Under the pieces are notes generated by a model, which searched no databases, was not told where the DNA came from, and saw only the letters and a program-made list of their open reading frames with translations. Shown here one piece after another: positions 7,493 to 45,428 of a stretch of 56,771 nt of DNA. The stretch comes from an uncultured Pelagibacteraceae bacterium (GTDB taxonomy: Bacteria; Pseudomonadota; Alphaproteobacteria; Pelagibacterales; AG-422-B15), in contig CACKBQ010000008.1 in the NCBI GenBank assembly GCA_902598405.1, positions 1 to 56,771 of the forward strand. The letters are read 5' to 3'. The first letter of the stretch is position 1. Each line of letters starts with the position of its first letter. Made by a program: the position numbers and the translations under genes.

Positions 7493-8507
7493 GGATTCGC
7501 ATTTAGAAAAATTAGTCAAAGAACATGATACTTTTTTTAGTATTCTAATTTACGGACCCAACGAAGGTCTAGTAAAAGATCAGATTGACAAAATAGTTAA
7601 AAATTATCTAGTTCAAGATGAATATGAAAAAATTAGTTTAAATGGAAAAGAATTAGATAGTGACCCTCAAACACTGGAAGACTTAACTAGGTCAGTTTCT
7701 ATGTTCTACAAAAGTAAAGTTGTTATTGCAAGTGACATTAAAGATAAGCACCTCAAATTAGTTGAGGATGTAATATTAAATGAGCCTGATAGAGTTTTTT
7801 TGATTTTTAGAGAGGGTAATCTTAATAAATCATCGAAAATTAGAAAGTTTTTTGAAAGTAATGAAAAATGCTACTCACTTCCTTGTTATGAAGACGATGG
7901 CAGATCGATGATAAGAAATCTTGAAGAATTTATAAAGAAAAATAATCTTGAACTAAATCGCGATACAAAAAACTATCTTCTTCAATCACTAAGTAATGAC
8001 CGTATGGTAAGTAAACGTGAACTAGAGAAGATTGAAATATATTATAAAGACTCAAAAGCAGAGGTCGAATTAGATACAGTAAAAAATTTGCTTAATGACA
8101 ACAGTTCTCAGAACTTAAACAAAATGAATGAGAGTGTTATGTTTGGTAACACTGCAAAAAGTTCAAAAATAATTAATAAATTATTATCTGAGGGAGTGAA
8201 TCCGATAAGTTTGATAAGAAGTTTGTCAAGTTACCTGGCAAGAGTGCAGCGAACAAAAATAGAAATGAAAAAAGGTAATAATTTTGAAAATTCTATTAAA
8301 ATACTCAAACCACCTGTATTCTGGAAGGATAAAGATAGTTTTCAAAAACATTGTCTTAAGTGGCCGTTAGCTAAAATTGAAAAGAGTCTATCAAAACTCT
8401 TAGAAACAGAAGTCGTGTGTAAATTAAATAGCAGGTTAGCAAGTTTCAATTGTGAAAAATCAATATTGTTAATTGCTAGTCATGGAAAACAATATTTTAA
8501 AAACTAG
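7482..8507 (+). CDS. holA: DNA polymerase III delta subunit
   Basis: The 341-residue product is the clamp-loader delta subunit, which opens the beta clamp. FFSILIYGPNEGLVKDQIDKI is the characteristic N-terminal block (degenerate P loop). LIRSLSSYLARVQR and a C-terminal helical domain follow, as in alphaproteobacterial HolA. It overlaps lptE by 11 bases and ends with its TAG sharing CTAG with the convergent parB stop. Confidence 0.9.
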   Translation: MIIKDSHLEKLVKEHDTFFSILIYGPNEGLVKDQIDKIVKNYLVQDEYEKISLNGKELDSDPQTLEDLTRSVSMFYKSKVVIASDIKDKHLKLVEDVILNEPDRVFLIFREGNLNKSSKIRKFFESNEKCYSLPCYEDDGRSMIRNLEEFIKKNNLELNRDTKNYLLQSLSNDRMVSKRELEKIEIYYKDSKAEVELDTVKNLLNDNSSQNLNKMNESVMFGNTAKSSKIINKLLSEGVNPISLIRSLSSYLARVQRTKIEMKKGNNFENSIKILKPPVFWKDKDSFQKHCLKWPLAKIEKSLSKLLETEVVCKLNSRLASFNCEKSILLIASHGKQYFKN

Positions 8508-9364
8508 CTTTTTAGTTTAGTAGTTACTAATTCTAACTGATCAAGAGTCTTATATTCTATTTTAATTGAACCACCTTTTTTTCCTTTGTGATCGATAGAT
8601 ACACTTAATCCGAGCTTTGCTGTTAAGTTATTTTCTAAATCAATCGTATCTGGGTCTTTTAATTTAACTTTCTTTACTCCTGGCTTTCTTTGTTTTGCAA
8701 GGTCTTCTGCGGCCCTTACACTTAAATTTTCACTAACAATTTTTTCTGCTAGTTGTTCTGGGAAGGCACTATTCATAATAGCGCGGGCATGCCCTGATGA
8801 AATCTTTCCCTCAGAAATCATATCTTGAATGGACTGAGGTAAGCCAAGTAGTCTGATTATATTTGCAATATGACTTCTGCTTTTACCAACAATATCTGCA
8901 AGTGCGTCTTGAGTATGGCCGTGGTTTTCAATTAACCTTTTATATCCCGCTGCTTCTTCAATTGGTGATAGATCAGAACGTTGTACATTTTCTATAATTG
9001 CGATTTCTAACGCTTCTACATCATCTAGTTTTCTAACAACTGCAGGAATTTCGTGAAGTTGTGCAATTTGTGCTGCTCTCCATCTTCTCTCACCTGCAAT
9101 GATTTCATATATTCCAGTTTCTGTTGGTGAGGGTCTAACTAATATTGGTTGAACAAGCCCTTTGGATTTTATGGACTCAGCTAATTCATTAATACTATTT
9201 TTATCAAATAGTCTTCGAGGCTGTGACGGGCTTGGTTTTAAATTTGAAATAGAAATTTTTGTTTCTTGATTTGAAGTTTCATTTTGAATTGAGACATCTT
9301 TAGTATCACCCATAAGTGATGAAAGTCCACGACCCAGACCTTTTTTTGAAATCGATGAACTCAT
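8504..9364 (-). CDS. parB: Chromosome partitioning protein ParB
   Basis: The 286-residue product is the centromere-binding CTPase that loads on parS and spreads. KKGLGRGLSSLMGD is the usual ParA-interacting N-terminus. The ParB/Srx domain holds PSPSQPRRLFD and the nucleotide-binding GERRWRAAQ. The helix-turn-helix region includes SHIANIIRLLGLP, and the C-terminal dimer domain ends at LKS. It is the last gene of a reverse operon from the ferredoxin gene and overlaps parA by one base. A perfect parS target lies two genes upstream, in rsmG. Confidence 0.97.
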   Translation of the reverse strand: MSSSISKKGLGRGLSSLMGDTKDVSIQNETSNQETKISISNLKPSPSQPRRLFDKNSINELAESIKSKGLVQPILVRPSPTETGIYEIIAGERRWRAAQIAQLHEIPAVVRKLDDVEALEIAIIENVQRSDLSPIEEAAGYKRLIENHGHTQDALADIVGKSRSHIANIIRLLGLPQSIQDMISEGKISSGHARAIMNSAFPEQLAEKIVSENLSVRAAEDLAKQRKPGVKKVKLKDPDTIDLENNLTAKLGLSVSIDHKGKKGGSIKIEYKTLDQLELVTTKLKS

Positions 9365-10152
9365 TAAGCTGCTTCCTGTTCCTTGTTTTGTCTTATGATC
9401 TCATCCGCTAATCTTAAATATGCCTGACTACCGGCAGCCTTTTGATCATAAATTAATGCAGGCATACCAAATGAAGGAGCTTCTGAAACTCTTACGTTAC
9501 GGGGTATGATGGTTTCATATACTTGTTGACTTAAATGTTTTTTAACATCGTCAGCAACTTGTGAAGAAAGTTTATTTCTTGCATCGAACATTGTTAACAC
9601 TATTCCATCGATTGTTAAATTTTGATTTAGATTTTGTTTAACCCTATCAATTGTTTTTATTAACTGACTAAGACCTTCTAAAGCAAAAAATTCACATTGA
9701 AGTGGAACTATGACAGAGTCAGCTGCGGTCATTGCCATGACAGTGAGAAGACTTAAAGCTGGTGGACAATCAATAAAAACAAAACTAAAATCATTTAATG
9801 AGTTTTGGTCTATTAAAATTTTTTTAAGTGTAAAAGCTCTATCATTTACTTCAGCAAGTTCAGGTTCAATACCTGATAGATCCACAGTGGATGGAATGAT
9901 TTTTAAATTTTCTATTTCAGTATTTTGAATTGCATCAAATAAATTACATTGTGATGCAAGAACTTCATAAATTGAATTATTTCTGTTTTGATAATCTATA
10001 CCTAAACCTGTGCTAGCGTTTCCTTGAGGGTCTAGATCAATAATTAACACTTTTTCCCCAATAGCGGCTAAGGCTGTGGATAAGTTTATTGCTGTTGTAG
10101 TTTTTCCCACTCCACCTTTCTGATTTGAGATAGCTATTATTTTATTTTTCAT
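9364..10152 (-). CDS. parA: Chromosome partitioning ATPase ParA
   Basis: The 262-residue product has the deviant Walker A ISNQKGGVGKTTTAINL (from about residue 8), DLDPQGNASTGLG and FIDCPPALSLL. This is the Soj-type ParA without an N-terminal DNA-binding extension. It forms ATP-dependent dimers on the nucleoid and pulls ParB-parS complexes during origin segregation. It overlaps rsmG and parB by one base on each side, so the three are translationally linked. Confidence 0.98.
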   Translation of the reverse strand: MKNKIIAISNQKGGVGKTTTAINLSTALAAIGEKVLIIDLDPQGNASTGLGIDYQNRNNSIYEVLASQCNLFDAIQNTEIENLKIIPSTVDLSGIEPELAEVNDRAFTLKKILIDQNSLNDFSFVFIDCPPALSLLTVMAMTAADSVIVPLQCEFFALEGLSQLIKTIDRVKQNLNQNLTIDGIVLTMFDARNKLSSQVADDVKKHLSQQVYETIIPRNVRVSEAPSFGMPALIYDQKAAGSQAYLRLADEIIRQNKEQEAA

Positions 10153-10775
10153 TAAGTTATTGATTTTATTATATTTTTCAATTCCAAAATAAAAGATCCC
10201 CTTTCTCTTTCATTTTCATGCAATATATGAGTAAAATCCCAATATTTAGTAGCTTGCACGATCTCTTCATCTATATGTACACCTTTATGCAGAAGCAATG
10301 TAGTGTTTTTTTTGCATATATTATAACTAATTGATAATAAATGATTTAATTGGCTAACAGCTCTTGCTAAAATGATATCAAATTTTTTATTTTCAATTTT
10401 TTCTGCTTTAATGGGAATCACTTCAGTGTTTTTAAGATCTAAGTTAACAATACATTTATTAAGAAACGATACTCTTTTAGGTCTTTTTTCACACAAAAAA
10501 ACCTTATTTTTTGAGCCAAATAATATCGAAACTGGTATACCTGGAAGGCCAGCACCGCTGCCAATATCAATGATATCATTTCCATTGTTAGTTATAAACT
10601 GAACTAATCTTAGAGAATCATAAAAATGTCTTATCCAGATAAAGTTTTTATCATTCTTTGATATTAAGTTTTGGTCTTCTGCCAAAATCATTTCCCTGAA
10701 TTCAGCCAATTTTTCAATTGTTTCACGTGAAACATTTGGCAAGAGCTCTTTTAGAGCATCAGGCGAATCAATCAT
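10152..10775 (-). CDS. rsmG: 16S rRNA (guanine527-N7)-methyltransferase RsmG
   Basis: The 207-residue SAM-dependent methyltransferase is also known as GidB. IIDIGSGAGLPGIPVSILF is the SAM-binding motif I, and CEKRPKRVSFL follows in motif II. It methylates G527 of 16S rRNA. The N-terminal NVSRETIEKLAEF is partly dictated by a perfect parS site in the DNA (10719-10734), a known feature of this gene in many bacteria. It lies between mnmG and parA in the usual order. Confidence 0.96.
   Translation of the reverse strand: MIDSPDALKELLPNVSRETIEKLAEFREMILAEDQNLISKNDKNFIWIRHFYDSLRLVQFITNNGNDIIDIGSGAGLPGIPVSILFGSKNKVFLCEKRPKRVSFLNKCIVNLDLKNTEVIPIKAEKIENKKFDIILARAVSQLNHLLSISYNICKKNTTLLLHKGVHIDEEIVQATKYWDFTHILHENERERGSFILELKNIIKSIT
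10719..10734. promoter_or_regulatory. parS centromere site for ParB
   Basis: TGTTTCACGTGAAACA is a perfect match to the bacterial parS consensus and a perfect 16-bp palindrome. It lies inside rsmG, about 8.5 kb from the putative origin and 1.4 kb from parB. ParB should load here as a CTP-dependent clamp. I saw no second exact copy by eye in the window. Confidence 0.95.
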
Positions 10776-10785
10776 TATTTTGATA

Positions 10786-12654
10786 TTAAGCTAATTTTTG
10801 TGATTTAGCTTTGGTTTTTATATATGATAAAATAACACTGAGGGCCGCAGGTGTAACCCCATCAATTCTTGATGCTTGAGATAAGTTTTTAGGCTTAATT
10901 TTTGTAAGCTTTTCAATGATTTCTGTTGATAAACTGGGAATTAATTCATATTTAAGATTATGTGGAATTTCAACTTTTTCTTCTTTAGTAAGTGAAATTA
11001 TCTCACTTTCTTGCTTTTTAAGATAGCCTTTGTAATGAGCCTCCGTTGTTATTTGATCAAGAATTTCATTGCTATATTGCTTTAGATTTAAGTCAAAAAT
11101 CTCATCTATTTTATCAATATCGATATTAGGATAAGCTAATAAGTCAAAAGCTGATCTTTTTTTGCCATCTTGATTAATTTGAACTCCAATCTTTGAAAGT
11201 GCATTAGGTGTAACATATTGATTTTTAACAATTTTATTGACTTTTTCTAGTTCAATTTTTTTAGCTGAATACTTTTCATATCTGCGAGCCTCAACTAACC
11301 CTAAATTGTACCCAACCTCTGTTAATCTTAAATCTGCATTATCTGCTCTTAATAACAATCTGTATTCTGCCCTAGAAGTGAACATTCTGTAGGGCTCAGT
11401 AACCCCTTTTAGAGTTAAGTCGTCAATCATTACACCAATGTACGAGTCGTTTCTTGAAAAAACATGTTCTTTATTACTTAGGGATATTGCAGCATTCAAA
11501 CCTGCTACAAGCCCTTGCGCAGCAGCTTCCTCATAACCTGTTGTGCCATTTATTTGACCAGCAAGATAAAGACCTTTTATTTTTTTTGTTTCCAATGTTT
11601 GGTAAAGTTCTTGTGGATCAATAAAATCATATTCAATTGCATAACCATGCCTTACTATTTTAGCATTCTCTAAACCATTGATTTTACTTATAAATTCGTC
11701 CTGTACATCTGGCGGAAGAGAAGTTGAGATGCCATTTGGATATATTAAATCACTATCAAGTCCCTCTGGTTCTAAGAAAATTTGATGCCTCAATTTATCT
11801 GCAAATTTTACAACTTTATCTTCTACAGAAGGGCAATACCTTGGCCCTGTACCACTGATTTGACCTGAGTAAATAGCTGATTTTGTTATATTTTTTTGAA
11901 TTATATTGTGAACTGCCTCATTTGTATACGTCATGTGGCACGGTAATTGTTCATTATGAGTTTTTGTGGTTAAAAATGAAAAGTAAGAGTGCTCATCGTC
12001 AGATTCCTGTTTTTCAAGTTTAGAAAAATCTATTGTATTTTTATCCAGTCTCGCAGGTGTCCCAGTTTTTAAACGTCCAATATTAAAGCCAGTTTTATAG
12101 AGTGAGTCTGCAAGTCCTATTGAGGGAGAATCGCCATGTCTTCCAGCCGGAATAGTTTTGTCACCTAAGTGGATCAAGCCATTCAAAAATGTACCAGTTG
12201 TAATAATAACTTTTTTGGTAGATATTTTTTTACCACTTGCGCAAATCACACCAGCAATTTGTTTATTATTATCAAAAATTAAATCTTCTACAGGGTCAAA
12301 CAAAAGTTCTAAATTTTGTGTATTTTCAATCTCCTCCTGCATGTGTTTTTTATAGAGCTTTCTATCCGATTGAGCTCTTGGTCCTCTTACTGCAGGGCCT
12401 TTTGTTCTATTGAGTAATCTATATTGAATACTTGATAAATCAGCTATACGCCCCATTATTCCATCCAGAGCATCGATTTCCCTTACTAAATGGCCCTTAC
12501 CAAGACCACCGATTGCAGGGTTACAGGACATCTCACCAATGGTATCGAATTTATGGCTGATTAAGAGGGTTTTTGCACCAACACGTGCAGAAGTAGTCGC
12601 AGCTTCACAGCCAGCATGCCCTCCTCCAACTACAACAACATCATAACTAGTCAT
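10786..12654 (-). CDS. mnmG: tRNA uridine-5-carboxymethylaminomethyl modification enzyme MnmG
   Basis: The 622-residue FAD protein (GidA) starts with the dinucleotide-binding motif VVVGGGHAGCEAA. SCNPAIGGLGKGHLVREIDALDG and TGTFLNGLIHLGDKTIPAGR are family signatures, and the C-terminal helical domain ends in SRIDGVTPAALSVIL. With MnmE it modifies U34 of certain tRNAs using methylenetetrahydrofolate and ammonia or glycine. Its partner mnmE lies directly upstream in the same operon. Confidence 0.98.
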   Translation of the reverse strand: MTSYDVVVVGGGHAGCEAATTSARVGAKTLLISHKFDTIGEMSCNPAIGGLGKGHLVREIDALDGIMGRIADLSSIQYRLLNRTKGPAVRGPRAQSDRKLYKKHMQEEIENTQNLELLFDPVEDLIFDNNKQIAGVICASGKKISTKKVIITTGTFLNGLIHLGDKTIPAGRHGDSPSIGLADSLYKTGFNIGRLKTGTPARLDKNTIDFSKLEKQESDDEHSYFSFLTTKTHNEQLPCHMTYTNEAVHNIIQKNITKSAIYSGQISGTGPRYCPSVEDKVVKFADKLRHQIFLEPEGLDSDLIYPNGISTSLPPDVQDEFISKINGLENAKIVRHGYAIEYDFIDPQELYQTLETKKIKGLYLAGQINGTTGYEEAAAQGLVAGLNAAISLSNKEHVFSRNDSYIGVMIDDLTLKGVTEPYRMFTSRAEYRLLLRADNADLRLTEVGYNLGLVEARRYEKYSAKKIELEKVNKIVKNQYVTPNALSKIGVQINQDGKKRSAFDLLAYPNIDIDKIDEIFDLNLKQYSNEILDQITTEAHYKGYLKKQESEIISLTKEEKVEIPHNLKYELIPSLSTEIIEKLTKIKPKNLSQASRIDGVTPAALSVILSYIKTKAKSQKLA

Positions 12655-12702: not shown

Positions 12703-13998
12703 TTATTTACCGATGCAAAAATCTTTAAAAATAACTTCTAAATATTCTTCAACATCAACATGACCTGTTATTTTTCCGATTTCTTGAATGGCTAATCTTA
12801 ACTCTTCAACCATAAGTTCAGAATTAACTTTTAAATCTATACTTTTTGCGCTGAGTAAACTTTGTATTGAATTTTGAACACCTAGAATGTAACGAGTCTT
12901 TGTTGGTATTGTATCGGTGTAACTTATGAATTTGCTTGATACGTGCTCTGCAATTTTATTGATTAAATTATCAATACCACTTCCATTTGAAACTGAGATA
13001 TTGATACAGCCTTCTTTTTTATAATTATCATGCAAGTCACATTTATTTAGAACTGTAAGTCGATCCTTATATAACTCAACATCATTTGGATCATCAAATA
13101 ATTCCAAAACTAAATTTGCTTCCTTTATTTTACTTTGAGTTATTTCAATTCCTTTTTTTTCGATCTCATCTTCAGTGTCTCTTAAACCCGCAGTGTCTGT
13201 TAAAATGACTGGAAATCCAGCAATATTTAGCCTTACTTCAATCGCGTCTCTGGTCGTGCCCTCCCTATCAGACACAATTGCAACATCACGATTAGCGAGT
13301 GAATTTATCAAACTTGATTTGCCAACATTTGGAGATCCAATGATGGCGACTTTATAACCGTCTCTTAATATTTCTCCTTGATTGCGTTGTTTTAAGTGCT
13401 CATTCATTTCGTCTAAAAGTTTTTCAATTTTTGAATTGATGTTGTTAAGAACATTTTCAGGAATATCTTCATCTGCAAAATCTATATCCGCTTCGAGATA
13501 AGCAACTAACTCTATTAAAGACTTTCTCCATGATAAATATAATTTATTCAGTGAGCCATTCATCTGGGACAGTGCTTGATTATGTTGAATTTCAGTTTGC
13601 GCATTAATTAGATCACCCATGGCTTCAATTGCTGTTAGATCCATTTTGTTATTCACAAATGCTCTTTTTGAAAATTCACCAGGTTGAGCCAATCTTAACT
13701 GATCAATATTAGAAAGTGATTTAAGTAAAAGCTGAACAGTTGTATGGCCGCCATGCACATGAAACTCAACAACATCTTCACCTGTGAAACTTTTTGGTTT
13801 TGAGAAGAACACAGCAAGACCTTTGTCAATTAAGTTACCACTTTCTGGATCATAAAATTCTGATTTTGTTAAGACGTTTGAATCGAAGTGACTCTTTCTA
13901 GAAATTGTTTTAAGAGCGGTGAGCGCTAGATGTCCTGAGACTCTTACAACCGCTAACCCCGCAACACCGCTGGCAGTTGATAGTGCAAAAATTGTCAT
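12703..13998 (-). CDS. mnmE: tRNA modification GTPase MnmE
   Basis: The 431-residue product has the N-terminal folate-binding domain (TIFALSTASGVAGLAVVRVSG), a helical domain and an inserted G domain. The G domain has GSPNVGKSS (about residues 217-225), DREGTTRD, DTAGLRD and NKCD. It ends with CIGK, the conserved Cys-containing tail of the family. It works with MnmG on tRNA U34. Its start overlaps the ferredoxin stop by four bases. Confidence 0.97.
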   Translation of the reverse strand: MTIFALSTASGVAGLAVVRVSGHLALTALKTISRKSHFDSNVLTKSEFYDPESGNLIDKGLAVFFSKPKSFTGEDVVEFHVHGGHTTVQLLLKSLSNIDQLRLAQPGEFSKRAFVNNKMDLTAIEAMGDLINAQTEIQHNQALSQMNGSLNKLYLSWRKSLIELVAYLEADIDFADEDIPENVLNNINSKIEKLLDEMNEHLKQRNQGEILRDGYKVAIIGSPNVGKSSLINSLANRDVAIVSDREGTTRDAIEVRLNIAGFPVILTDTAGLRDTEDEIEKKGIEITQSKIKEANLVLELFDDPNDVELYKDRLTVLNKCDLHDNYKKEGCINISVSNGSGIDNLINKIAEHVSSKFISYTDTIPTKTRYILGVQNSIQSLLSAKSIDLKVNSELMVEELRLAIQEIGKITGHVDVEEYLEVIFKDFCIGK

Positions 13999-14315
13999 TT
14001 TTTTATTTGGAGATTTTCAGCGATACGGTCATTAATAAGATGTTCATTGATTACTTGGTCCACATCTTCTTCTGTTTTACATGAGTACCAAACATTATCT
14101 GGATAAACAACAAGTGTAGGACCAAATTCACAATGATCCAAACAGCCTGATGCATTTATTCTTATTTTCTTATCGGGGACCAATTCTTTTGTTTTTTTCT
14201 TCATATAAGCTCGCAGCACTGTGGAATTTTTAGAGGCACAACAACCTTTTGGATGACCATCAGGTCTTTGGTTTGTACAAAAAAATATGTGTCTTTCAAA
14301 AAATTTGTTAGTCAT
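13995..14315 (-). CDS. Thioredoxin-like [2Fe-2S] ferredoxin
   Basis: The 106-residue product carries Cys13, Cys25-Cys26, and Cys58/Cys62 in GCLDHCEFGP. This is the C-x(11-12)-C...C-x3-C arrangement of thioredoxin-fold 2Fe-2S ferredoxins. HIFFCTNQRPDGHPKGCC is the standard opening. It probably carries electrons in the cytoplasm; the partners are unknown. It is the first gene of the mnmE-mnmG-rsmG-parAB operon, so this operon starts at the 30-base spacer shared with the ogt-like gene. Confidence 0.85.
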   Translation of the reverse strand: MTNKFFERHIFFCTNQRPDGHPKGCCASKNSTVLRAYMKKKTKELVPDKKIRINASGCLDHCEFGPTLVVYPDNVWYSCKTEEDVDQVINEHLINDRIAENLQIKK

Positions 14316-14326
14316 AAGGTCAGAAA

Positions 14327-14334
14327 ATTATAAT
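14327..14334. promoter_or_regulatory. Overlapping divergent -10 elements for the ferredoxin and ogt-like genes
   Basis: ATTATAAT reads TATAAT on the plus strand (14329-14334) and TATAAT on the minus strand (14332-14327). It sits exactly in the middle of the 30-base spacer, 11 bases from each ATG. Both transcripts would have leaders of only a few bases. A weak -35 (TTGTTA, 14305-14310, 18-base spacer) exists for the plus direction; none is clear for the other. Confidence 0.6.
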
Positions 14335-14345
14335 ATCTTATATAT

Positions 14346-14801
14346 ATGAGCAGCTACGTTTTCAAATCAATCATTGGCAATATTGAGCTTGTCTCAAGCA
14401 AAAATAGAATAATTGCAGTTCATAGAACAAGGAAAAAAACCAACAAAACAGAGGATAAGCTTCTAAAAAGCTCTGCGCTTCAAATTAAAATGTATCTTGC
14501 GCGCAAAAGGCGATCCCTTAATTTTCCAACAAGACAAATGGGCACAAGATTTCAAAACCGTGTTTGGAATTATTTACAAAGGATACCTTATGGTAGAACA
14601 ACAACTTACGGCGATATTGCGAAGAAATTAAGAACATCGCCTCGAGCTGTTGGGGGCGCCTTAGGAAAAAATAATCTTATGATGACAGTTCCATGTCATA
14701 GAGTAGTTGGAAGTGACGGCAAACTCACAGGATTTACATCAGTGGGTGGATTAAGTACCAAAAGAAATTTACTGAACATTGAACAAAAAACTAAAAAATA
14801 A
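14346..14801 (+). CDS. Methylated-DNA--[protein]-cysteine S-methyltransferase (Ogt/MGMT family)
   Basis: The 151-residue product ends in the MGMT domain. FQNRVWNYLQRIPYGRTTTYGDIAKKL is the DNA-binding part, RAVGGALGKN follows, and VPCHRVVGSDGKL holds the alkyl-acceptor Cys. The protein removes O6-alkyl groups from guanine in a suicide reaction. The N-terminal part is short compared with E. coli Ogt but covers the usual domain. It ends 23 bases inside the apt reading frame. Confidence 0.92.
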   Translation: MSSYVFKSIIGNIELVSSKNRIIAVHRTRKKTNKTEDKLLKSSALQIKMYLARKRRSLNFPTRQMGTRFQNRVWNYLQRIPYGRTTTYGDIAKKLRTSPRAVGGALGKNNLMMTVPCHRVVGSDGKLTGFTSVGGLSTKRNLLNIEQKTKK

Positions 14802-15318
14802 ACTCAAAAAGAAAATTAGAGTAATTCCAAATTTCCCAAAAAAGGGTATTCAGTTTCAAGACATAACTTCAATCACAGACAGCAAGTCGCTTTTTACCGA
14901 AGTTGTTAATGAAATTTCTAAATATTGTAAAAAAAATAAATTTACTAAAGTAGCTGGTATAGAGGCGAGAGGCTTCATCTTTGGATCAGCTATTGCCTAC
15001 AAGCTTGGCTTACCTTTTATTCCAATAAGAAAAAAAGGGAAACTTCCAGGAAAAATAGTCAAGCAAACATACAAGTTAGAGTATGGAATAGATGAAATCC
15101 AAGTACACAAATATTCTATCACTTCCAAAGATAAAGTTTTGATTGTCGATGACTTAATTGCAACCGGCGGAACAGCTGACGCGGCCGCAAAGCTAATTTC
15201 AAAACTTGGGGTAAAGAAAATTGAATTTTTTATGATAATTGATTTATGGAACCTCAAAGGCTCAAAAAAGATTTCTAAAAAATATCAGATAAGGTCGTTG
15301 ATGGAGGCGGAAGGATAA
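14779..15318 (+). CDS. apt: Adenine phosphoribosyltransferase
   Basis: The 179-residue product converts adenine and PRPP to AMP. IRVIPNFPKKGIQFQDIT is the family N-terminal block, GIEARGFIFGSAIAYKLG the middle one, and VLIVDDLIATGGTADAA the PRPP-binding loop. The start is a TTG at 14779, giving a 12-residue Lys-rich lead before IRVIP; no ATG is available nearby. It overlaps the ogt-like gene by 23 bases, so its translation is probably coupled. It ends one base from the convergent rho stop. Confidence 0.95.
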   Translation: MNKKLKNKLKKKIRVIPNFPKKGIQFQDITSITDSKSLFTEVVNEISKYCKKNKFTKVAGIEARGFIFGSAIAYKLGLPFIPIRKKGKLPGKIVKQTYKLEYGIDEIQVHKYSITSKDKVLIVDDLIATGGTADAAAKLISKLGVKKIEFFMIIDLWNLKGSKKISKKYQIRSLMEAEG

Positions 15319-18122: not shown

Positions 18123-19105
18123 GTTGACCTTATCTGTAAGAGCATTTCCTCAACTTTCTCAATTGATGTCTCGGGTAAAACCCCGTGTCCTAAATTGAAA
18201 ATATGTGGTCTTTCGCTAAAAGCAAACAATATTTCTTCAATCTTCTGACTAAGATTTTGAGAGTCTTTTAATAGGTGTCTAGGATCTAGATTTCCTTGAA
18301 AAACAATTTTATCATTTAGCTCATTAATTTTATCTAAAGGAAAATTATAGTCTAAGGTAATACAGTCAAGCTTATCTATGTTTGAATATTTTTTATAACA
18401 TGCAAGATTAGTGTTTCTAGGAAAGCCGATAATAGGAATATTTTTTATTTTTTTTATACTCTCAATAATTTTTTTTGTAGGTTGAACGCACCATTTGTTG
18501 AACTGTTCGTCATTCAAATATCCTGCTGCTGATTCAAATATTTGAAAAGCATCAATCCCACAATCAATTTGCATTTCTGCATGTTGAATAATCGCACGTG
18601 TCATTTGCTCGATTAAATTGTCTATTTGTGGAGTCTTTTTTTCAATATCTTCGAATTTTAGATTTTGACGTTCATTTTTTTCATATAAACAATAAAACAG
18701 TGTCGTCCATACTCCGCCAGCAAACCCTATTAAGGGGACATCTGTATTTTCTTTAATTTTATTTATTCCTGTTGCAAGAGGTAGGGTTTTTTCAGGATTA
18801 TAATTTATGTTCTCATTAAACTTTATTGCTGGACCCTGCCCTTCGATAAAACTAACAGTTGAGCCTGCAGCAAAAGGGGTTATTAAAATGTCTGAAAACA
18901 CAATACAGGCATCCATGTCGTATCTGTTTACAGGCTGAAGTGAAACTTCAAGTATTGCCATGGGATCAAGAAACATATCCATAAGGTTTGCAAATTGTTT
19001 TCTGATACTTATATATTCAGGCAAGTGTCTTCCCGCTTGTCTCATTAACCAAACTGGTGTTGGGCTTGTTTTTTGTCCCTTAAGTGTATCTATAAATATA
19101 CTCAT
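18119..19105 (-). CDS. hemE: Uroporphyrinogen decarboxylase
   Basis: The 328-residue TIM-barrel enzyme converts uroporphyrinogen III to coproporphyrinogen III. TPVWLMRQAGRHLPEY is the first signature, with substrate-binding Arg and Asp residues (CIVFSDIL). FNLGHGVLPETSIE is the C-terminal one. It is slightly short at the N-terminus compared with E. coli. Its start faces the putative origin, as hemE does in Caulobacter. Confidence 0.97.
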   Translation of the reverse strand: MSIFIDTLKGQKTSPTPVWLMRQAGRHLPEYISIRKQFANLMDMFLDPMAILEVSLQPVNRYDMDACIVFSDILITPFAAGSTVSFIEGQGPAIKFNENINYNPEKTLPLATGINKIKENTDVPLIGFAGGVWTTLFYCLYEKNERQNLKFEDIEKKTPQIDNLIEQMTRAIIQHAEMQIDCGIDAFQIFESAAGYLNDEQFNKWCVQPTKKIIESIKKIKNIPIIGFPRNTNLACYKKYSNIDKLDCITLDYNFPLDKINELNDKIVFQGNLDPRHLLKDSQNLSQKIEEILFAFSERPHIFNLGHGVLPETSIEKVEEMLLQIRST

Positions 19106-19376
19106 TATAATATATATAATTGTAGTTGTTTATGTTCCTGTGGAATTGTGTATATATAAAAAGTCACGTTTTGCCCACAATTCGATACACAGAACAATTG
19201 TTTTGAATTATATGTTTTTTAACCTTATGCACCGACGTGGAAGAAAACCCCAATATCTCTAATAGGTGAACAAAGTTTGCAAAAATTCTCAATAAAGATA
19301 GAAAAATAAGTTAAAAATTACAGATGGGCAAAGATAGTAAAAGCACTCACAGGTCATAAGGGGTTTATACAGGTTT
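19106..19376. other. Putative chromosomal replication origin (oriC)
   Basis: This 271-base spacer is the longest gene-free stretch in the window. It lies between divergent hemE and maf, exactly where gene direction flips from mostly minus to plus. It holds several DnaA-box-like 9-mers (consensus TTATNCACA). ATATACACA (19147-19155, minus strand) and TTATGCACC (19225-19233) each differ at one position. Weaker ones are TTATACAGG (19365-19373) and TTATGAACA (19375-19383). A TATATATAAT stretch at 19111-19120 could unwind. Caulobacter Cori lies beside hemE, and parAB-parS are close by, as expected near an origin. No exact DnaA box is present, so the call rests mainly on context. Confidence 0.7.
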
Positions 19377-23825: not shown

Positions 23826-23831
23826 TATAAT
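23826..23831 (+). promoter_or_regulatory. -10 element of the Tim44-like gene
   Basis: An exact TATAAT ends 10 bases before the ATG at 23842. It gives an expected leader of only a few bases. No good -35 is visible. Confidence 0.5.
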
Positions 23832-23841
23832 ATTTAAATAA

Positions 23842-24456
23842 ATGAGTGAAGCATTTCAGTACATAGACATTTTGATTCTAGCAATTATTGCTGGCATTGT
23901 CCTTCTGCGTCTTAGAAGCGTCCTAGGAAGACGTACTGGTCACGAAAAAACCGACAAAACCTCATATAATTATGAGACACCACAAACTTCTAAAGAGGAA
24001 AAAGTCATTCCAATTGAACCAAAAACTTCATCTAGTGCGCGCGAGGACGGTTGGTTTAATAATGACGATTTTTTACGTGGTGCAGCGAACGCCTATGAAA
24101 CTATTGTTACGAATTTCGAGAACGGCAACAAAGATGCATTAAAGCCTCTACTTTCTGACGATGTATTAAATAGTTTTTCTACAGTTATTGATGAAAGAAA
24201 TAGTAAAAATGAAACAGTGGAATTTAATTTTATAGGAATTGAAAAGTCAGAGATTGTTCACAAAGATTTAAAGAATAATCCAATGGAGGTGACAGTTAGA
24301 TTTATATCAGAAATGATCACCTGTATTAAAAACAATAAGGACGAAGTTATTTCAGGCAGCTTGAATCAAGTTCAAAAAATTACTGATGTTTGGACATTTG
24401 AAAAAATAAAAGATAAAAAAAGTTCAAACTGGCTGTTAGCAGCGACTTCCGATTAA
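23842..24456 (+). CDS. Tim44/TimA domain protein
   Basis: The 204-residue product has an N-terminal membrane helix (IDILILAIIAGIVLLRLRSVLGRRTG). A charged low-complexity linker follows, then a Tim44-like domain from about residue 75 (FLRGAANAYETIVTNFENGNKDALKPLLSDDVLNSF). Alphaproteobacteria carry such TimA proteins near secB and fxsA. By relation to mitochondrial Tim44 they may dock chaperones at the inner membrane. The function in bacteria is not settled. Confidence 0.85.
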   Translation: MSEAFQYIDILILAIIAGIVLLRLRSVLGRRTGHEKTDKTSYNYETPQTSKEEKVIPIEPKTSSSAREDGWFNNDDFLRGAANAYETIVTNFENGNKDALKPLLSDDVLNSFSTVIDERNSKNETVEFNFIGIEKSEIVHKDLKNNPMEVTVRFISEMITCIKNNKDEVISGSLNQVQKITDVWTFEKIKDKKSSNWLLAATSD

Positions 24457-41289: not shown

Positions 41290-41295
41290 TATAAT
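41290..41295 (+). promoter_or_regulatory. -10 element of rph-rdgB
   Basis: An exact TATAAT ends 10 bases before the rph ATG (41306). It implies a leader of a few bases. No convincing -35 is seen. Confidence 0.5.
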
Positions 41296-41305
41296 TTATC
41301 ACTCA

Positions 41306-42019
41306 ATGAGAAATAATAGAAATATTAACCAACTAAGAAATATAGAAATAATTCCTAATTTTTCATACAATCCGGAAGGCTCATGTTTAATTAAATGTGG
41401 CGATACCCATGTGATCTGCAGTGCTTCACTTGATAGAAATTTACCAAGATGGTTAAAAAATTCAGAGACCGGGTGGGTAACAGCAGAATATGGAATGTTA
41501 CCAAGATCAACTTCTGAGAGAATGTCTAGAGAAGCCGCTAAAGGCAAACAATCTGGTAGAACACAGGAAATCCAAAGACTAATTGGAAGATCATTAAGGT
41601 CTGTAGTTAATTTAGAAGATTTAAGAGAATTACAAATAATAATAGATTGTGATGTTATTCAAGCAGATGGTGGAACAAGAACTGCTTCAATCTCAGGATC
41701 ATTTATTGCACTTCAATTGTGTATAAATCATATGCTCAATAAAAAAATTATAAAAAAAAATCCAATAAGTGAATATGTTGCCGCAATCAGCTGTGGAATT
41801 ATGAATGGTGAGCCTTATTTAGACTTAGATTTTGAAGAAGATCAAAATGCTGAAGTAGATGCAAACTTTGTAATAACAGAAAGCGGTAAATTAGTTGAAG
41901 TACAGATGACTTCGGAAAAAAAGCTTTGTGAGGAAAGGTCATTTAATGCAATGTTGGAACTTGCAAAATCAGGGATCTCTGAGATTATCCAAATACAAAA
42001 AAAAATTTTAAGTGATTAA
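41306..42019 (+). CDS. rph: Ribonuclease PH
   Basis: The 237-residue phosphorolytic 3'-5' exoribonuclease trims tRNA precursors. YNPEGSCLIKCGDTHVICSASLD, PRSTSERMSREAAKGKQSGRTQEIQRLIGRSLR (catalytic and RNA-binding Arg residues, quoted in part) and VIQADGGTRTASISG are the family blocks. It overlaps rdgB by eight bases. Confidence 0.97.
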   Translation: MRNNRNINQLRNIEIIPNFSYNPEGSCLIKCGDTHVICSASLDRNLPRWLKNSETGWVTAEYGMLPRSTSERMSREAAKGKQSGRTQEIQRLIGRSLRSVVNLEDLRELQIIIDCDVIQADGGTRTASISGSFIALQLCINHMLNKKIIKKNPISEYVAAISCGIMNGEPYLDLDFEEDQNAEVDANFVITESGKLVEVQMTSEKKLCEERSFNAMLELAKSGISEIIQIQKKILSD

Positions 42020-44820: not shown

Positions 44821-44826
44821 TATAAT
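44821..44826 (+). promoter_or_regulatory. -10 element of the BON lipoprotein gene
   Basis: An exact TATAAT ends 11 bases before the ATG at 44838, within the 31-base gap after rsmI. It suggests a separate start of transcription with a leader of a few bases. Confidence 0.42.
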
Positions 44827-44837
44827 AATCACTGATA

Positions 44838-45428
44838 ATGAACATTAAATTTGTTTTTACATTAGTATATATAATTCTTCCCTCTATCTTGATAGCTCAC
44901 TGTGCTCAAGTAGCAACCGGAACTGCTGTAAAGGTAGTTACAGTTAATCAAGAAGATAGATCAATTGGAGAGTTTGTTGACGATGCAATTATAAAAACTT
45001 TAATAAAAAACACATATTTTGATCAAAACGAAAAACTATTCTTTAATATTGATGTTGAGGTATTACAAGGAAGAGTGTTATTGACTGGAACAATAGAGAA
45101 TATCGACCTTAAAATTGAAGCAACTCGAATTGCTTGGGGAGTAAAAGGGGTAAAGACTGTTATAAATGAAATCCAAATATCAGACTCAGATAATATAATT
45201 AATTTCGCCGATGATCTTGTTATAAGCACAAAAGTAAAAGGAAAATTAATATTAAACGATAATATCAATTCATTGAATTATAGCATTGAGACCGTTAATA
45301 AGCTGGTTTACATTATTGGTATTGCTACAAGTGAGAATGAAAGAGATTTAGTAATAAATATTGCTAGAGAAGTATATGGTGTAGAGGAAGTGATAGACTA
45401 TATCTCAATTAAAACTGACGAATTTTAA
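44838..45428 (+). CDS. BON-domain lipoprotein
   Basis: The 196-residue product has an N-terminal hydrophobic segment and a probable lipobox ending at Cys22 (LIAHC; the His before Cys is unusual). Two BON domains follow: NIDVEVLQGRVLLTGTIEN with WGVKGVKTVINEI, and a second with VYIIGIATSENERDLVINIAREVYGVEEVIDYI. It is of the DolP/OsmY type, which binds anionic phospholipid at the outer membrane. Position between rsmI and gshB is common in alphaproteobacteria. Confidence 0.85.
   Translation: MNIKFVFTLVYIILPSILIAHCAQVATGTAVKVVTVNQEDRSIGEFVDDAIIKTLIKNTYFDQNEKLFFNIDVEVLQGRVLLTGTIENIDLKIEATRIAWGVKGVKTVINEIQISDSDNIINFADDLVISTKVKGKLILNDNINSLNYSIETVNKLVYIIGIATSENERDLVINIAREVYGVEEVIDYISIKTDEF

Follow-up and report, generated by a model that had tools for sequence, protein, structure and literature searches.

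The window analysed here, a stretch of 56,771 nt from an uncultured Pelagibacteraceae bacterium of the SAR11 order, contains two divergent gene units whose start codons, at 14315 on the minus strand and 14346 on the plus strand, enclose a very short spacer (Table 1). The leftward unit begins with a gene for a 2Fe-2S ferredoxin-like protein and reads fdx-mnmE-mnmG-rsmG-parA-parB, as an earlier interpretation of this DNA made from the letters alone (hereafter the sequence-only reading) had correctly named it. The rightward unit consists of ogt and apt and stops before a convergent rho gene; a scan for relatives of ogt in viral contigs found none.

Table 1. Genes and sequence elements of the divergent locus, in window coordinates
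Feature	Position	Strand	Remarks
parB	8504..9364	-	named from translation and position after parA
parA	9364..10152	-	
rsmG (GidB)	10152..10775	-	
mnmG, next in the leftward operon	10786..12654	-	named from translation and position
mnmE, start overlaps the end of fdx by 4 bases	12703..13998	-	
2Fe-2S ferredoxin-like gene (fdx), first of the leftward operon	13995..14315	-	matches below curated cut-offs
TTGTTA, weak -35-like hexamer inside fdx	14305..14310	+	18 bp upstream of the rightward -10
Divergent spacer between start codons, 30 bp	14316..14345		length 30 in 22 clade A genomes, 31 in 8 clade B genomes
ATTATAAT, self-complementary octamer with both -10 hexamers	14327..14334		identical in 28/30 genomes, one substitution in the other two
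TATAAT, predicted -10 of the fdx-mnmE operon promoter	14327..14332	-	sequence; conserved except in L029 (TATAAC)
TATAAT, predicted -10 of the ogt-apt promoter	14329..14334	+	sequence, hexamer conservation
ogt-like O6-methylguanine-DNA methyltransferase	14346..14801	+	PCHR motif present
apt (adenine phosphoribosyltransferase), overlaps the end of ogt	14779..15318	+	approximate start

Read from the window sequence, the spacer is AAGGTCAGAAA-ATTATAAT-ATCTTATATAT, with segments of 11, 8 and 11 bases. The central octamer is its own reverse complement and gives TATAAT on both strands, each hexamer lying 11 bases from its ATG, which agrees exactly with the arrangement described in the sequence-only reading. 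Both hexamers are perfect matches to the -10 consensus, overlap by 4 bp and have their T(-7) positions 7 bp apart, and the palindromic symmetry is confined to the 8 bp of the octamer. Upstream of the rightward hexamer, TTGTTA matches the -35 consensus at 4 of 6 positions and is present in 23 of 29 congeners, TTATTA or TTGTTC being found otherwise; no -35 element was found for the leftward direction. Over the first 13 codons of each of fdx, ogt and mnmE, synonymous changes were not significantly rarer than elsewhere, and a conserved -35 element within the neighbouring genes was rejected on the grounds that there was no excess of synonymous constraint.

Conservation of the spacer among SAR11 genomes

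The octamer occurs in the window at chance frequency (6 copies seen, 5.75 expected), a match that led us to reject it as a rare signal, and the site was picked after reading; the spacer sequence by itself is therefore weak evidence. In simulations, ATTATAAT appeared somewhere in a 30-bp spacer of the same composition with a probability of ~0.019, and exactly centred with a probability of ~0.0009, a value calculated after the site had been picked. A promoter scan returned 53 sites, with 54 expected from shuffles, and was uninformative by itself. Most copies of the octamer in the sampled genome stretches fall within genes. A second copy in the window, at 19104-19111, abuts the start codon of hemE, too close to be the -10 element of that gene, and suggests caution in taking the octamer alone as evidence of a promoter. 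The octamer at the spacer goes beyond chance because it is conserved, not because it is rare.

The gene pair was compared in the window and 29 public relatives, mostly single-cell isolates, giving 30 genomes that fall into clade A (n = 22) and clade B (n = 8). The spacer measures 30 bp in clade A and 31 bp in clade B (11+8+12). ATTATAAT was found unchanged, with both overlapping -10 hexamers intact, in 28 of the 30 genomes that carry the pair. The two remaining genomes differ at one base each: in L029 the octamer is GTTATAAT and the leftward hexamer becomes TATAAC, with loss of T(-7), and in L034 it is ATTATAGT and the rightward hexamer becomes TATAGT. Between the two clades, fourfold-degenerate sites differ at 63% (mnmE), 64% (fdx) and 60% (ogt), and the left flank of the spacer differs at 49%, compared with ~1% per site in the core; the right flank is entirely invariant within clade A. 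With these fourfold sites as a neutral yardstick (A kept at 55%, T kept at 43%), the probability of retention between the clades would be ~0.003 for the octamer and ~7e-5 for the common 14-mer AAAAATTATAATAT. The A and T that belong to the leftward hexamer only (14327-14328) are conserved as well as the rest of the octamer.

In a genome of a sister genus (L158), which has an fdx of 75% identity, the octamer aligns with ATTATTGT, located 11 bases from fdx and 15 bases from ogt. A(-11) and T(-7) persist on both strands there, but the two hexamers, AATAAT leftward and TATTGT rightward, are weaker matches to the consensus. In all three lineages that carry fdx the octamer or its counterpart therefore lies 11 bases from that gene, whereas it lies 11, 12 or 15 bases from ogt, and because only the left distance is constant, exact centring is not conserved and perfect symmetry is not supported as a rule. 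The alignment that the sequence-only reading had put forward as its own check hence bore it out in part: the octamer is kept in 28 of 30 genomes amid diverged flanks and the left 11-base distance holds, but the right one does not. Exact symmetry as a functional feature found no support, since the right distance varies between 11 and 12 within the genus and reaches 15 in the sister genus.

Six genomes of genus g1 gave no match to ogt. Five of them were also without a good match to mnmE, and the sixth (G007) has the locus on a short contig, which breaks off soon after the spacer. Considering both facts, the locus is probably just unassembled in these genomes, and we rejected their use as evidence of gene loss.

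Distance between TATAAT and the start codon

Assuming the usual 6 bases between a -10 element and the start of transcription, start sites are predicted near 14341 (+) and 14320 (-), 21 bp apart, and the predicted leaders would be ~5 nt long on both sides (2-8 nt, taking the range of distances from -10 to start site in Zheng et al. 2011, PMC3160421). No Shine-Dalgarno sequence was found in CTGACCTT-ATG (fdx, 5'-3') or TTATATAT-ATG (ogt). According to that survey, leaderless bacterial genes are marked by a -10-like signal near the start codon. The genes at the spacer resemble the TA-led class described there in having a TANNNT signal ~10-12 bp before the start codon, TATAAT ending 11 nt before each ATG, and in having no Shine-Dalgarno sequence. 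Unlike that class, they would have a leader of ~5 nt (2-8), which makes them near-leaderless. Of the 117 alpha-proteobacterial genomes in that survey only 2 scored, and Pelagibacter is not named in the part consulted.

We also counted this distance at other gene starts. Among genes with an upstream gap in the window and in stretches of three related genomes, TATAAT was located 9-11 nt before ATG in 15 cases, compared with 2.6 expected, homologous loci being counted repeatedly. When only called starts with a gap upstream were counted, TATAAT 10-11 nt before ATG was seen 8 times in 600 kb of genome G059 (1.8 expected; two of the 8 are the present spacer) and 4 times in 400 kb of G048, a genome of another family (0.95 expected). 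Gene calls in these counts were simple longest-ATG ORFs, some of whose starts are wrong, and the distance of 11 was taken from the finding itself, 10 being added after the data had been seen. Called starts from two families of the order show this excess at 10-11 nt.

Since TATAAT recurs 10-11 nt before ATG at other called starts, the 11-base spacing looks like a near-leaderless habit of the order. This remains a lead rather than a proof, because unrestricted whole-genome counts of TATAAT-N10/11-ATG revealed no excess over N7/8 and N13/14, where the coding background may hide one. The very short leaders noticed in the sequence-only reading follow from the geometry of the spacer, and the recurrence of TATAAT 10-11 nt from ATG at unrelated called starts is consistent with them. 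Within the window, the same arrangement of TATAAT followed after 10-11 nt by ATG is also found at 23826-23844 (+) for a Tim44-domain gene, at 41290-41308 (+) for the RNase PH gene and at 44821-44840 (+) for a BON-domain gene.

A predicted bidirectional promoter and its alternatives

We consider it likely that the spacer is a functional bidirectional sigma-70 promoter with overlapping -10 elements, of the Warman/Grainger type. Direct support comes from the sequence and its geometry, from the conservation of the octamer next to diverged flanks and synonymous sites, and from the recurrence of the TATAAT-ATG distance at called starts; transcription, start sites, mutual exclusion and leaderless translation are what we infer from these observations. 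Because each strand carries TATAAT and the two copies overlap by 4 bp, the housekeeping RNA polymerase could bind the same AT-rich site in either orientation. Rightward binding would produce an ogt-apt mRNA from near 14341, and leftward binding an fdx-mnmE-mnmG-rsmG-parAB mRNA from near 14320. A single polymerase would occupy the site at any time, so that the two directions would be mutually exclusive, and leaders of ~5 nt without a Shine-Dalgarno sequence would entail near-leaderless translation of both mRNAs.

Overlapping -10 elements for transcription in both directions, to which the sequence-only reading had appealed, do form an established and widespread class (PMC10268837, PMC12825309). 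Such promoters are defined by divergent starts 7-25 bp apart with overlap of key -10 positions (PMC10268837); they are ubiquitous in prokaryotes, simultaneous binding of polymerase is sterically prevented, and common separations are 18, 10 and 23 bp (PMC12825309). As in the class of Warman et al. 2021, the -10 elements here overlap on opposite strands, would lie between two divergent mRNAs and have predicted starts separated by 21 bp, which falls within the defining range of 7-25 bp; A(-11) and T(-7) are present on both strands in the window, in 28 of the 30 genomes and in the sister genus. Unlike that class, whose commonest start-site spacing is 18 bp, the spacer has two perfect hexamers overlapping by 4 bp, and each predicted start is ~5 nt away from its start codon. 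The finding combines two elements of known kinds, of which it is a further, well-conserved example. Counting against the bidirectional reading are the lack of a good -35 element either way, the rightward TTGTTA not being invariant, the loss of the leftward T(-7) in L029, and a 21-bp spacing outside the commonest values.

The main rival is a one-way promoter with incidental symmetry, in which one TATAAT is used, the other is a by-product of the AT-rich overlap, and the second gene uses a nearby -10 element. TATAAT is nearly symmetric, so that one consensus element readily makes a mirror element, and a symmetric hexamer makes the two directions hard to separate by conservation. The better -35 element is on the rightward side, the loss of the leftward T(-7) is tolerated in L029, and congeners in which a nitroreductase gene faces ogt (see below) keep TATAAT, or TATGAT or TATACT, by ogt and have no matching leftward consensus. 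Against this reading, the leftward-only A and T are as conserved as the remaining octamer, the left 11-base distance is constant in three lineages, and a further leftward -10 element would hardly fit into the spacer. We regard the one-way promoter as unlikely.

Two further explanations carry much less weight. The perfect 8-bp inverted repeat, conserved and central, could be the operator of a dimeric regulator of one or both genes, but a sequence that occurs at chance frequency in the window, with most copies within genes, is unsuited to a specific operator; moreover, the octamer coincides exactly with the -10 consensus and the symmetry stops at 8 bp, which makes an operator very improbable. 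Least credible of all is an AT-rich spacer without function that has not had time to diverge. The chance frequency of the octamer and the invariance of the right flank within clade A would fit such a spacer, but it was already disfavoured by the difference between the clades at ~60% of fourfold sites and 49% of the left flank, from which the core is exempt.

If the bidirectional reading holds, the locus would be an unusually clean, comparatively supported natural bidirectional promoter in a bacterial group that ranks among the most abundant and the most streamlined, and would show how ~30 bp can suffice to drive both a parAB-leading operon and a second unit. A wider SAR11 feature is suggested as well, namely -10 elements so near the start codons that the mRNAs would be nearly leaderless. 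More tentatively, and with the balance tilted against it, SAR11 might possess a compact type of promoter, with one symmetric -10 element shared by two near-leaderless mRNAs, the near-leaderless TATAAT 10-11 nt before ATG being order-wide; both 5' leaders, the ribosome sites and the intergenic regulatory region would then collapse into ~30 bp. We found no published description of an order-wide near-leaderless TATAAT habit.

Gene partners across the spacer

In seven congeners (L154-L156, L159-L162), ogt is present and fdx is absent at the locus, and a gene of the nitroreductase family (Pfam PF00881, 185 aa) is divergent from ogt. The nitroreductase-ogt spacer is 21 bp long (e.g. ATAATATATCTTAATGTATAC) and contains no palindrome; TATAAT is on the ogt strand, as TATGAT in L155 and TATACT in L159. 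The nitroreductase was found in 3 of 14 congeners searched, only in those carrying it at the locus, and in none of seven fdx-bearing genomes searched. In G010 (L155), mnmE is 95% identical to the window protein and ogt only 71%; from just before the mnmE start onward its DNA matches a nitroreductase-type genome at 79-97%, compared with 69-83% inside mnmE. Because mnmE and the nitroreductase-ogt-apt segment match different lineages, recombination seems to have exchanged the divergent cassette, the breakpoint lying close to the start of mnmE. The mosaic locus in L155 (G010) lies from about position 1700 onward.

Still other genes lie opposite mnmE in genera g7 and g8 of the same family, and in two genomes of another family ogt and mnmE are directly divergent. 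Given the replacement of fdx by the nitroreductase gene in congeners and the apparent exchange of the cassette, the gene pairing across the promoter is not fixed. The proposal that the spacer couples a replication/partition operon to DNA repair accordingly finds no support beyond adjacency: ogt-apt makes up the rightward unit, congeners have either a ferredoxin or a nitroreductase gene in first place on the left, and mnmE faces other genes in g7 and g8.

The apt gene is ~70% identical to that of the window in L030, L032, L034, L036, L037, L039, L040, L045-L047 and L049, whose ogt and fdx are 83-97% identical to those of the window, as if apt had been exchanged within clade A. In three uncultured proteobacterial genomes (L081, L082 and L085, one of them titled Bordetella), ATTATAG lies ~6-7 bases from the start of the homologous ferredoxin gene and gives a TATAAT directed into that gene.
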